Assembly: GCA_027483645.1 (NCBI GenBank)
Contig: JAIXUD010000009.1
Location: 366,814-430,813 of the forward strand
Reading direction: 5' to 3'
From: Sphingobacteriales bacterium
Lineage (GTDB): Bacteria > Bacteroidota > Bacteroidia > Chitinophagales > CAIOSU01
DNA: 64,000 bases
Positions 47,337 through 62,535 of this stretch are shown here, piece after piece (the first letter of the stretch is position 1; every line of letters starts with the position of its first letter). Made by a program: the position numbers and the translations under genes. The notes beneath the pieces were generated by a model. The model made no database searches, was not told where the DNA came from, and saw only the letters and a list, made by a program, of their open reading frames with translations.

Positions 47337-47376
47337 TACTTGATACTTGATACTTGATACTCACTACTTGATACTA
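47337..47376. repeat. TTGATAC heptamer array
   Basis: GTACTTGATACTTGATAC then TTGATACTCACTACTTGATACT: three perfect TTGATAC heptamers in tandem and one displaced copy. It runs into the phoH stop codon (47374). Confidence 0.75.
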
Positions 47377-48711
47377 GAGGAGATCATTTGCCAAGTTGGC
47401 CAATTCCGAGCGTTCTCCTTTCTCCAAAGTCACGTGCGCATAGATGTCTTGCCCACGGAATTTATCGATGAGGTAAGACAGCCCGTTACTTTGAGAATCT
47501 AAGTATGGCGTATCAATTTGGTAAATATCGCCCGTAAACACAATCTTGGTTCCTTCGCCAGCACGGGTAATGATGGTTTTCACTTCGTGCGGGGTAAGGT
47601 TCTGTGCCTCATCGATGATAAAGAAGATGTTGGAAAGGCTCCGTCCGCGGATGAAGGCTAACGGTGTTACCACTATCTTCTCGGTATCCACCAGCTCGGT
47701 TATTTTCTTAAAGGCGCGCTCGGTTTCCCTAAACTGGTTTTGGATGAGTTTCAGGTTATCCCAAATCGGCTCCATGTAAGGGTTCACTTTAGCCACGGCA
47801 TCGCCCGGCAAAAAACCGATATCCTTGTTGCTCAATGGCACTATGGGCCTAGCCAGATACACTTGGTTGAAATCTTTTTGCTGCTCCAGCGCACCAGCAA
47901 TGGCTAGCAACGTTTTGCCCGTACCAGCTACCCCTTGCAGGGTTACCAGCTTTACATCGGGGTTCAATATGGCGTGCATGGCAAATACCTGTTCGGCATT
48001 GCGGGGCTTTATTTTGCTTATGGTATTTTTTTCCACTCGCTCAAAAGTATTGGCCACGGGGTTGAAGTATGCCAGCAAAGAGTTCTTCGGGCTCTTCAAT
48101 ATATAGTAGCTGTTGGCACTCGGCCTTTCATCGGTAACCTCTTCAAAGGGCACCGCACCATCCTTGTATATACGGTTTATTACCGCAGGGTCAACCTCCT
48201 CAAGGGTATTTTTGCCTTTAAAAAGGCTGTCCACGTTTTTTACCTTACCGGTTTCGTAATCTTCGGCCAGCAGGTTCAGGGCTTTGGCTTTCAGGCGCAG
48301 GTTCACGTCTTTCGATACCAATATTACCTTTTGATTGGGGTATAGGGTTTGTATGCCCATGGCCACATTCAATATTTTGTGGTCTTGCTTTACCTCGCCA
48401 AATACCTTTTCGGCATCCACATCCCCATGTCCGTTCATGCCTACCATAAAGTTGCCGCGGTTTCCCTCGGGGTCAATAGGTATCCACTCGGTTATCTTTT
48501 TATCTTTCGATAGCGCATCCAGAATGCGGATAAACTCACGGGCTTCAAAGTTCTTATTGTCATTACCCTTCTTAAAGTTGTCCAGTTCTTCCAGTACGTT
48601 TATCGGTATTACTACGTCGTGTTCCTGAAAGGTCCTAAGGGCATTGTGGTTGTATATAATCACCGATGTATCGAGAACGAAAATCTTCTTCTCCGCTTTG
48701 GTCTTTGCCAT
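47374..48711 (-). CDS. PhoH family protein with PIN domain
   Basis: 445 residues. N-terminal PIN domain (about 1-140; FVLDTSVIIYNHNAL), then the PhoH ATPase (about 235-440) with P-loop GVAGTGKTLLAIAGAL, RPIVPLSNKDIGFLPGD and FIIDEAQNLTPHE (Walker B). PIN-PhoH (PhoH2-type) proteins are RNA-unwinding ribonucleases in the cases studied. Cytoplasmic. Confidence 0.93.
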   Translation of the reverse strand: MAKTKAEKKIFVLDTSVIIYNHNALRTFQEHDVVIPINVLEELDNFKKGNDNKNFEAREFIRILDALSKDKKITEWIPIDPEGNRGNFMVGMNGHGDVDAEKVFGEVKQDHKILNVAMGIQTLYPNQKVILVSKDVNLRLKAKALNLLAEDYETGKVKNVDSLFKGKNTLEEVDPAVINRIYKDGAVPFEEVTDERPSANSYYILKSPKNSLLAYFNPVANTFERVEKNTISKIKPRNAEQVFAMHAILNPDVKLVTLQGVAGTGKTLLAIAGALEQQKDFNQVYLARPIVPLSNKDIGFLPGDAVAKVNPYMEPIWDNLKLIQNQFRETERAFKKITELVDTEKIVVTPLAFIRGRSLSNIFFIIDEAQNLTPHEVKTIITRAGEGTKIVFTGDIYQIDTPYLDSQSNGLSYLIDKFRGQDIYAHVTLEKGERSELANLANDLL

Positions 48712-60427: not shown

Positions 60428-60510
60428 ATGATTTTAAAAAATACTTGCCCTAACTAAGCGCAATCTCCCGCTAGCTTAGTAAATTGCAACCCAATCTAAA
60501 TCCTCGCCTC

Positions 60511-60840
60511 ATGAGCCACTACGGAGCCCTCCTAACCATTACCAAGAAGAAAGGAACCTTGAACGAGCAAGATGATGCCTTGCTGAAAAAGGTATTGGGT
60601 ATATTGGATATGGATGAATTTGTGGATGTAGCAGGTGAGCCGTTTAGCTTGGAATTCAAGCCCGTAGCCGATACCGATAATCAATACCAGATAAAGCTCA
60701 GCGAATACCCGCAAACCACCGAAGCCGACTTCAAAGCCGCTAAGGATAACGATTGGGAGCTAGCCAAAGAAATCAAAGACATGCTTACCAGCACCCTTAG
60801 CGATCAGTTTGGGTTTAAGGTGGTTTTTGAGGCCTGGTAA
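60511..60840 (+). CDS. Small acidic hypothetical protein
   Basis: 109 residues from ATG 60511; an earlier TTG is unlikely. Soluble, mixed alpha/beta, with many Asp and Lys residues (LNEQDDALLKKVLGILDMDE). I do not recognise a family. It lies alone between gcvP and the putative RNA. Confidence 0.6.
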   Translation: MSHYGALLTITKKKGTLNEQDDALLKKVLGILDMDEFVDVAGEPFSLEFKPVADTDNQYQIKLSEYPQTTEADFKAAKDNDWELAKEIKDMLTSTLSDQFGFKVVFEAW

Positions 60841-60935: not shown

Positions 60936-61040
60936 TGTGCATAAGGTAATCGCTATACCCATAAAATGTTCACAACCATATAGAATCGGTGCATAACCAA
61001 ATAAAACAGGTGCATAAATTGGTTGAAATGTTGTGCATAA
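60936..61040 (+). promoter_or_regulatory. Array of four phased GTGCATAA sites (operator or DnaA-box cluster)
   Basis: TGTGCATAA at 60936-60944 and 61032-61040, GGTGCATAA at 60988-60996 and 61009-61017, all in the same orientation. Start-to-start distances are 52, 21 and 23 bases, close to five, two and two helical turns. On the - strand the first and last read TTATGCACA, a match to the DnaA-box consensus TTATNCACA. They sit just upstream of the -33 box of the RNA promoter in AT-rich DNA, so they could be operator sites or part of an origin. Confidence 0.6.
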
Positions 61041-61056
61041 ATATGACGAAAAAAGT

Positions 61057-61087
61057 TTTGGAAATGTGGGCTGGTGTACTAACTTTG
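61057..61087 (+). promoter_or_regulatory. Perfect Bacteroidota promoter of the putative RNA
   Basis: TTTG at 61057-61060, exactly 19 bases, then TAACTTTG at 61080-61087: the canonical -33/-7 arrangement and the best promoter in the window. Confidence 0.8.
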
Positions 61088-61091
61088 ATAA

Positions 61092-61445
61092 CATCAAGCG
61101 AGGGAAATAAGGCAGGCTTGCAAAAGCCAGATACCTCGGAAAGTTGTTTGAATTGTTGATTTAGTCGAAGGGGTCGGAAGCCGCAAGGTAGACGATCTGG
61201 GAAAGCATCCGCTTCAGAAGACGATCAATATATTAAAGGTAATCACTTCTTCGGAAGAAACGCATGCCGAGAACAATGTTTCATGTTCGTGTCAGAGTCC
61301 TTTTAGGAAAAACACTTCGGTGAAAGACCTAGAAGAGAAGACGAAGCCACAAAACCGTAACTTGACGCTTTCTGGCTGTAATGGCAAATGAAGGTGGAAG
61401 CGGGCTCTAAAACTGTTAAAAGTTTTAGGCCCGCTTCGTGTTTTT
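61092..61445 (+). ncRNA. Putative structured non-coding RNA, about 350 nt
   Basis: Between the promoter and a strong terminator there is no ORF of note but many short stems: GCGAGG/CCTCG (about 61098/61134) enclosing GGCTT-GCAA-AAGCC; a UUCG-looped hairpin CTTC-TTCG-GAAG (about 61247); GAACA/TGTTC (about 61271); and CAC-TTCG-GTG (about 61313). GAAA and GCAA loops and GATC repeats add to the impression of a folded RNA. I checked for conserved pieces of tmRNA, RNase P RNA and group I/II introns and saw none. Function unknown. Confidence 0.6.
61397..61445 (+). terminator. Terminator of the putative RNA
   Basis: GAAGCGGGC-(T)-CTAAAACT, loop GTTAAA, AGTTTTAG-GCCCGCTTC: 17 pairs with one bulged T, followed by GTGTTTTT. 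Confidence 0.88.
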
Positions 61446-61493: not shown

Positions 61494-61961
61494 CTATAAA
61501 ACCTTCCGCAGCGGCTGGTTGAGGTCGATAAATTCAAAATCAACCTTGGCTTCTGCTTGTAGCGTCTGATATATCTTCAGGCTTTCGGTGTCCGAACTGA
61601 TATAGTATTTTATCGCTGACTCGGTATCTGCTTGGGCGAAAAGTTTTGTGTCATTGGGAATAATGAGGCGCGTTACCGTTTCCAATGAACCAGCTTTTCT
61701 TGCTTTAAAAGCAATACCCGCGATTTCTGCTGAACGAAAAGCATGATGCAACTCAAAGGGTATTATCTTTAATGACGCGGCTGGCAATTCTTGGTATATA
61801 CCATACACGCAATATTCTGCAACAGAAATGGTCGAAATAGCAAGTACAAAGTCTTGCTCCTTGAAATAGCTAAAGTAATGTTGTGCTTTTTGTTGCAAAG
61901 CATCATTCGGGTTAAGCAACCGAATAAAGAAACTAGTGTCAAACAATACGGCGTTCTGCAT
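61494..61961 (-). CDS. PIN-domain toxin (VapC-like)
   Basis: 155 residues from ATG 61961. PIN-fold acidic residues are visible in LFDTSFFIRLLNPND, SVAEYC, and IPNDTKLFAQADTES. PIN toxins cut RNA. Its ATG overlaps the stop of the upstream gene (TAATG). The C-terminus is longer than in minimal VapC. Confidence 0.78.
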   Translation of the reverse strand: MQNAVLFDTSFFIRLLNPNDALQQKAQHYFSYFKEQDFVLAISTISVAEYCVYGIYQELPAASLKIIPFELHHAFRSAEIAGIAFKARKAGSLETVTRLIIPNDTKLFAQADTESAIKYYISSDTESLKIYQTLQAEAKVDFEFIDLNQPLRKVL

Positions 61962-62407
61962 TAGGCCCTTCCTCGAACTTCGTTTAACCATTCGTCCGGA
62001 TCAACTTTACCTACCCAACTTTCTTTGGCCCGCTCTTGAAGCTCTTTAATGTATTCGGCATCAGCCCTTGGGGCATATTCCACATCTGGGAAAAACTGAT
62101 AGTTGGGTTCCCGTCCCTCCTTCTTACTTTCAATCTCAATATTCACCCCATACTCCTGCTCAATTTCGCGCTCTAATTCTTGCAATGATTTATCTTGAAA
62201 CAATTCATTGAGTATTTGGATAGCAAAAGCAGTACGTTCTTTCCTTACATCTATCATGTGCGAGACCACGGCCAGTAAAACAGTGACCGCAATATCATCT
62301 CCATTGGAAGGCAAAAACCTAAGCGTATCGCCCGCCTTGGGTTGTTGCGCGGCTATTTGCCGTTGCAAACTCCCCCTATCGTTAATATCTACCACTATCG
62401 TCTTCAT
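61961..62407 (-). CDS. Probable antitoxin partner of the PIN protein
   Basis: 148 residues from ATG 62407; an earlier open frame to 62506 looks non-conserved. I do not recognise a known antitoxin fold. N-half begins MKTIVVDINDRGSLQRQI with mixed alpha/beta structure; C-half is strongly charged (QELEREIEQEYGVNIEIES) and ends EWLNEVRGRA. Coupling with the toxin by TAATG makes the antitoxin role likely. Confidence 0.6.
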   Translation of the reverse strand: MKTIVVDINDRGSLQRQIAAQQPKAGDTLRFLPSNGDDIAVTVLLAVVSHMIDVRKERTAFAIQILNELFQDKSLQELEREIEQEYGVNIEIESKKEGREPNYQFFPDVEYAPRADAEYIKELQERAKESWVGKVDPDEWLNEVRGRA

Positions 62408-62535
62408 AACCCTAAGATATAATTCCTTCAACAACATGGCTGCAATAGTAGTTCTCGCCACTGCGCACAGTAACACTAATTTACTAACTGATTTCGCAGT
62501 TTGCAAATTATTTGATGGCGAAAAATGAAACGAGG

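Follow-up and report, generated by a model that had tools for sequence, protein, structure and literature searches.

The window analysed here, a 64,000-nucleotide stretch of genomic DNA from a Sphingobacteriales bacterium, contains a non-coding RNA gene (Table 1) that stands as a free unit between a small ORF (60484-60840, + strand) and a PIN-like ORF (61494-61991, - strand). The 5' end of the RNA is probably at about 61090-61093, a minor correction of the 61092 proposed in an earlier note on this DNA, and the helix that joins its two ends, P1, begins at 61094. That note had described a perfect promoter and a terminator, and both descriptions hold: the promoter is of the Bacteroidota sigma-A type (TTTG-N19-TAACTTTG), matching the consensus of TTTG at -33 and TAnnTTTG at -7, and is kept in all seven copies of the RNA that we found in the genus, and the terminator, a long stem followed by GTGTTTTT, is present and covaries in all seven as well. 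The -7 consensus TAnnTTTG of Bacteroidota sigma-A is given in PMC9723704; a generic sigma-70 and terminator scan detected neither the promoter nor the terminator of the window. The longest ORF on the + strand within the RNA has 23 codons, and the seven genus copies share neither a start codon nor a frame, in agreement with the earlier reading that no credible ORF is present.

Just downstream of the RNA and convergent with it lie the PIN-like ORF, which is of the VapC type, and an overlapping partner ORF (61961-62506, - strand). A Pfam search gave no match for either of the two. We considered the VapC-type gene as a partner of the RNA and take its presence to be a coincidence, because it is not shared with the other loci and is without a Pfam match.

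Table 1. Coordinates of the RNA gene, its parts and the associated elements in the window.
Feature	Position	Strand	Description and basis
Candidate partner gene, PIN-PhoH (PhoH2-type)	47374..48711	-	12.4 kb from the RNA
Second exact TGTGCATAA element	60936..60944	+	at -158
One-mismatch copies of TGTGCATAA	60989-60997, 61010-61018		
DnaA-box-like element TGTGCATAA (reverse complement TTATGCACA)	61032..61040	+	fixed at -62 from P1; putative function
Sigma-A type promoter	61057..61087	+	TTTG (61057-61060), 19 nt, TAACTTTG (61080-61087); read from sequence
RNA gene	61090..61445	+	about 355 nt, non-coding; fold, conservation, covariation, ORF check
P1 5' strand	61094..61098	+	UCAAG; partner strand 61361-61365; covaries in 40 homologues
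Conserved internal-loop strand	61099..61112	+	YGAGRGAUAAAAGGC (here CGAGGGAAAUAAGG); near-invariant in 40 homologues, runs into P2
P2 5' strand	61111-61113	+	GGC, entered from the conserved 5' loop strand
5' hairpin	61115..61128	+	GGCUU-GCAA-AAGCC, GNRA loop; fold and covariation; varies in distant homologues
Variable interior arm	61151..61234	+	includes GCAA-capped hairpin 61172-61197; missing or replaced in distant homologues
Remaining variable interior	61235..61345	+	includes UUCG-capped hairpin (61313-61322), whose closing stem covaries
P2 3' strand, conserved loop strand, P1 3' strand	61346..61365	+	GCC; AYAAUAACWGUAR (here ACAAAACCGUAA); CUUGA (61361-61365)
3' hairpin	61366..61396	+	stacks immediately on P1; most homologues have a cUACGg or GCAA loop; all 14 pairs covary
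Factor-independent terminator	61397..61445	+	long stem 61397-61437, then GTGTTTTT; sequence, covariation

The window RNA (356 nt) folds with a minimum free energy of -105.6 kcal/mol (z -3.45), which none of 100 shuffles equalled, and two distant homologues fold at z -5.4 and -6.2. The hairpins with GNRA-like and UUCG loops that had been noticed earlier were recovered (GCAA and UUCG loops in Table 1). When 100 related genomes were searched in blastn style, copies appeared only in three of the four congeners, each of which carries two tandem copies with 77-79% identity in a neighbourhood unlike that of the window, whereas the window genome has a single copy in a different place. The tandem copies (L031 2657-3664, L032 2068-3103 and L033 2511-3521) lie about 290 nt apart, and each has its own promoter and terminator. 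Promoter, terminator and main helices are all kept in the seven genus copies, on which RNAalifold predicts 92 pairs, 16 of them with compensatory changes; the covariation score was reached by no shuffle and was lost when partners were slid.

To these copies we added more distant relatives. With a covariance model built on the seven copies we detected two homologues from other families within the order, at E-values from 1e-15 to 1e-17, and a second covariance model added G005, G006 and G028. Reading the distant homologues side by side revealed that their ends are shared, and a 5'-end pattern (TTTGN{3,8}YCAAGYGAGGGN{0,2}AWAAGGC) was scanned over 84,980 species genomes; 17 loci matched. Of these, 14 hold a complete RNA, and every one of the 14 comes from a Bacteroidota assembly, with Chitinophagales, Bacteroidales and Flavobacteriales among the orders named. 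The remaining three (L080, L081 and L089) are chance matches in coding sequence. A model of the 3' domain was positive in 45 of 395 Bacteroidia genomes, and a phylum-wide draw gave one weak match only outside this class. Relatives of the RNA are found in at least 17 families, all in Bacteroidia except for that one weak match. Near-complete genomes also carry them, in families that seem to be cultured, such as f61, f36 and f23; low-scoring R2 matches, such as those in G034, G026 and G037, were left out of the family. Strict filters were used in the large genome searches, so that the absence of the RNA from any one genome is uncertain. The earlier suggestion of a lineage-specific class is borne out at the level of the class Bacteroidia, but not as a narrow restriction, the RNA being spread far wider than one genus.

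All of these RNAs are built to a common plan, in the order TAnnTTTG, 5-7 nt, P1 (YCAAG), UGAGRGAUAAAA, P2 (GGC), a variable interior, P2' (GYC), AYAAUAACWGUAR, P1' (CUUGR), a hairpin and the terminator, with the TAnnTTTG 5-7 nt ahead of P1 in nearly all homologues. P1 joins the two ends; the large asymmetric internal loop that it encloses is nearly invariant, has UGAGRGAUAAAA as its 5' strand and AYAAUAACWGUAR as its 3' strand, and is closed by P2. The region inside P2 varies freely in sequence and length, and the span from P1 to P1' ranges from 205 to 638 nt; the loop of the 3' hairpin is mostly cUACGg or GCAA. The window RNA has UCAAG/CUUGA as its P1, carries both loop strands (GAGRGAUAAAA and AAUAACWGUAR) with deviations at a few positions (GAGGGAAAUAA, AAAACCGUAA), and has the 3' hairpin stacked on P1 and then the terminator.

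The earlier note had named covarying pairs in an alignment of homologues as a check on the structure, and covariation is strong. For P1, where the 5' site was picked by motif and promoter alone and pairing was disregarded, all five pairs form in 40 of 40 homologues and in ten helix variants (CCAAG/CUUGG, UCAAG/CUUGA, UCAAG/CUUGG, CCAAA/UUUGG, CCAAG/UUUGG, UCAAA/UUUGA, UCGAA/UUCGA, ACAAG/CUUGU, UCAGG/CCUGA and GCAGU/ACUGC), with shuffled partners pairing in at most 33 of 40. Among 61 distinct 3' domains every one of the 21 modelled pairs has changed on both sides, including 7 of 7 in the terminator, and 0 of 500 shuffles were as good on any measure; fitting the 3'-domain alignment to the model biases it towards structure, and slid controls nevertheless collapse.

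Two branches of the family differ from this plan at their 5' ends. A sub-family in f61 (L144, L145, L149, L151, L157 and L160) has the 5' end AUCAAGAACGACGUAYUUUGACAGCC and the 3' end ACACAAAACUUGRUGC, its interior is packed with repeated short arms (GCAUUCGCA-like), and it mostly adjoins a phoH gene. The high-GC family f30 (L245 and L246, in G405 and G449) has a strongly diverged structured stretch, with a hairpin and a terminator at its end, directly upstream of phoH, and this stretch would be missed by a sequence search. Since the 5' ends of both branches have diverged, we take them as homologous over the full length on the strength of the 3' domain, the phoH-adjacent position and, in f61, a P1-like CAAG/CUUG pairing.

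To place the RNA among known classes we used Rfam 15 (4227 models), scanned at the gathering score and at permissive E-values (up to 10). The whole window gave no match at gathering scores, the window RNA gave chance matches only at permissive E-values (E >= 0.55), and scans of homologues from about 20 other loci gave no match, upholding the earlier view that this RNA is outside the known classes. The 6S and 6S-Flavo models do not match the RNA family, nor do the RNase P and SRP RNA models match the RNA, and ARAGORN, run on the window, detected neither a tRNA nor a tmRNA, with none reported by Rfam. Size and stand-alone transcription would fit a strongly diverged housekeeping RNA (6S, RNase P, tmRNA or SRP RNA), and such RNAs usually occur once per genome; this explanation is nonetheless already contradicted, and we regard it as very improbable, given that there is no Rfam match at a useful E-value for the window or for the other homologues scanned, that a separate Bacteroidales-1-like RNA is encoded on another contig of the window genome, and that the RNA is multi-branched with a large variation in length, unlike 6S. 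Many complete genomes also are without the RNA, which argues against an essential housekeeping role. The likeness to 6S and 6S-Flavo (RF00013, RF01685) lies in an independent transcript whose ends are paired around a large conserved internal loop, but those RNAs form a single rod of about 180-200 nt.

Bacteroidales-1 (RF01693), a stand-alone structured Bacteroidota RNA with many conserved nucleotides (PMC2864571), resembles the window RNA in all of these respects, but it has 179 positions and its sequence is unrelated. It was rejected as the identity of the window RNA, the genome's only match being elsewhere (contig C13, 209386-209578) and representing a separate RNA. That match (L197, in the window genome G000) is weak, at 42 bits and below the cut-off of 60, and matches below the gathering score also occur in several other Bacteroidia families, which suggests that the Bacteroidales-1 family is wider than Bacteroidales.

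In a literature search that covered mainly the main texts of open-access papers, neither this RNA nor any RNA partner for PhoH2 was found to be described. An earlier description of the family may exist, and by 'new' we mean a class that fails every membership test made; in this sense the RNA is a new class, and the claim covers the class, not the mechanism. From sequence comparison it is almost certain that we are dealing with a genuine structured RNA family that is transcribed from its own promoter, functions as RNA and is outside Rfam. The gene product is a long folded RNA, not a protein, and belongs to an old, class-wide family of stand-alone RNAs of the Bacteroidia. The RNA probably acts in trans, because its position and orientation relative to genes vary, no co-directional gene lies downstream of it in the window and at many other loci, and the congeners have it as a tandem duplicate. 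The raiA motif (ModT RNA) is likewise a widely conserved structured RNA that acts in trans and is often found beside one protein gene (PMC11706538), but it belongs to Bacillota and Actinobacteriota, whereas the RNA described here has no Rfam match and has phoH, not raiA, as its neighbour.

The region upstream of the promoter carries the DnaA-box-like elements listed in Table 1. In many families the sequence TTGTGNATAA, which on the opposite strand reads as the DnaA-box consensus TTATNCACAA, occurs at a fixed -62/-61 from P1 and again further up. We counted 35 such DnaA-like sites in the 7.5 kb of DNA that precedes the RNAs, whereas 19.4 kb of other intergenic sequence at the same loci held 2, so that the sites are about 45 times denser upstream; dinucleotide shuffles contain a mean of 2.7 and a maximum of 7. 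A location of the RNA gene beside dnaA or oriC is not general: the distance is 5 kb in G734 and 37 kb in G490, and the gene is otherwise far away or on other contigs. By its resemblance to the consensus, the upstream element is a putative binding site for DnaA, through which transcription of the RNA could be tuned.

An all-against-all comparison of the ORFs around 53 RNA loci identified PhoH2 as the sole neighbour family common to many bacterial families, at 20 of the 53 loci. The neighbour is a protein of about 450 aa, with PIN_4 (PF13638) and PhoH (PF02562) domains in the RNA-adjacent homologues. The two genes are adjacent in eight families other than that of the window, where they are 12.4 kb apart; in the congeners phoH is likewise elsewhere than the RNA, and adjacency is lacking from the window's own family and from roughly half of those that carry the RNA. 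In G012, G017 and most f61 genomes the RNA precedes phoH and has the same direction; it is divergent from phoH in f45 and downstream of a co-directional phoH in G398; further adjacent cases are G028, G409 and the f30 genomes G405 and G449. Weak RNA matches in G409 and G485 proved to adjoin phoH, so the RNA and phoH calls in these genomes support one another. PhoH2 is present in 45 of 48 RNA-positive genomes and in 58 of 91 RNA-negative ones (Fisher p 8e-5, with kinship ignored); the RNA-positive genomes without a detected phoH are G604, G613 and G688, and in many genomes phoH is present and the RNA undetected.

In a tree of 65 PhoH proteins the RNA-adjacent ones fall into two clades and about five changes are needed, so that the adjacency is counted as two long-maintained arrangements and not as twenty independent events; it may thus reflect two inherited arrangements rather than repeated selection. 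In one of these clades the RNA is 26-221 nt upstream of phoH, co-directional and terminator-ended, as would be expected if it had arisen as a cis-regulatory leader or attenuator of phoH and had later left this gene in some lineages. We consider such a leader improbable, as the RNA points away from phoH in f45 and f34, is followed by no co-directional gene in the window and at most other loci, has its own terminator, keeps the same end module where phoH is lacking, and occurs as two tandem copies in the congeners.

The confinement of adjacency to two PhoH clades also fits the chief rival explanation, and a quite possible one, in which the RNA has a general factor as its partner in trans (RNA polymerase, the ribosome or another RNA-binding protein) and phoH, a bystander, is linked to it only because gene order has been inherited. 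The RNA and phoH are far apart or on different contigs in f1, f31, f36, f67 and others, and a loop that hardly varies among all members suggests that there is some conserved partner; against a general factor, no other neighbour family is common across bacterial families and PhoH2 is almost always present in RNA-bearing genomes.

The same neighbourhoods bear on a mobile or defence-linked RNA, such as a retron-, CRISPR- or OMEGA-like guide or template. Although the interior evolves fast between conserved ends and one genus has tandem copies, genes for reverse transcriptase, Cas-like proteins and TnpB or IscB are not among the shared neighbours, and the presence of the RNA tracks phylogeny. Searches of 50,697 phage and 72,556 plasmid records gave no match, as did a search of viral contigs with three core patterns, and a role of this kind is highly unlikely.

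We tentatively favour the explanation that the RNA is a ribonucleoprotein partner or regulator of PhoH2, within a class-wide family that has DnaA-like sites upstream. The end module, with its two-stranded loop, short closing helix and free interior, looks like a protein-docking module, and would be where one conserved protein docks, with the variable arms serving as a lineage-specific effector, decoy or spacer domain. In Y RNAs, which are bound by Ro/Rsr, the paired ends form a conserved protein-binding module and the interior is variable. The window RNA resembles them by analogy in its end-paired conserved module and variable interior, but it has no Y RNA match in Rfam and a Ro/Rsr gene is not among the shared neighbours. 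The likeliest docking partner would be the PIN-PhoH (PhoH2/YlaK-type) RNase-helicase, because many lineages keep its gene beside the RNA and RNA-bearing genomes nearly always have it. The RNA could load PhoH2, restrain it in the manner of an RNA antitoxin, or be its obligate substrate.

In mycobacteria, PhoH2 combines an RNase with an ATP-dependent RNA helicase, and a small antitoxin partner is encoded just upstream (PMC7390352), which makes an RNA partner for PhoH2 plausible by analogy. The phoAT-phoH2 system shares the PIN-PhoH architecture and the small partner just upstream (PMC7390352), but the partner there is a protein, PhoAT, whereas here the candidate is a neighbouring RNA, known from gene position. 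The mycobacterial PhoH2 target motif AC[AU][AU][GC] overlaps ACUUG at P1; half of the members have GCUUG there, and we discarded this link. A more extended proposal, which we think unlikely, is that the RNA class is ancestral to the Bacteroidia and a dedicated PIN-PhoH partner, for instance as a guide-like scaffold, a loader or an RNA antitoxin, and that control of its transcription by DnaA couples RNA decay with the replication cycle.

It is rare for a structured RNA to keep a near-invariant core throughout a bacterial class, and RNAs that do so usually serve something central. Because its relatives are absent from the RNA catalogue searched, occur in many Bacteroidia families and are often beside an RNase-helicase gene, this RNA is probably functional and as yet unstudied. 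PhoH2 proteins are widespread and their biology is poorly understood, and if the link to the RNA is true, the function of PhoH2 would become directly testable.
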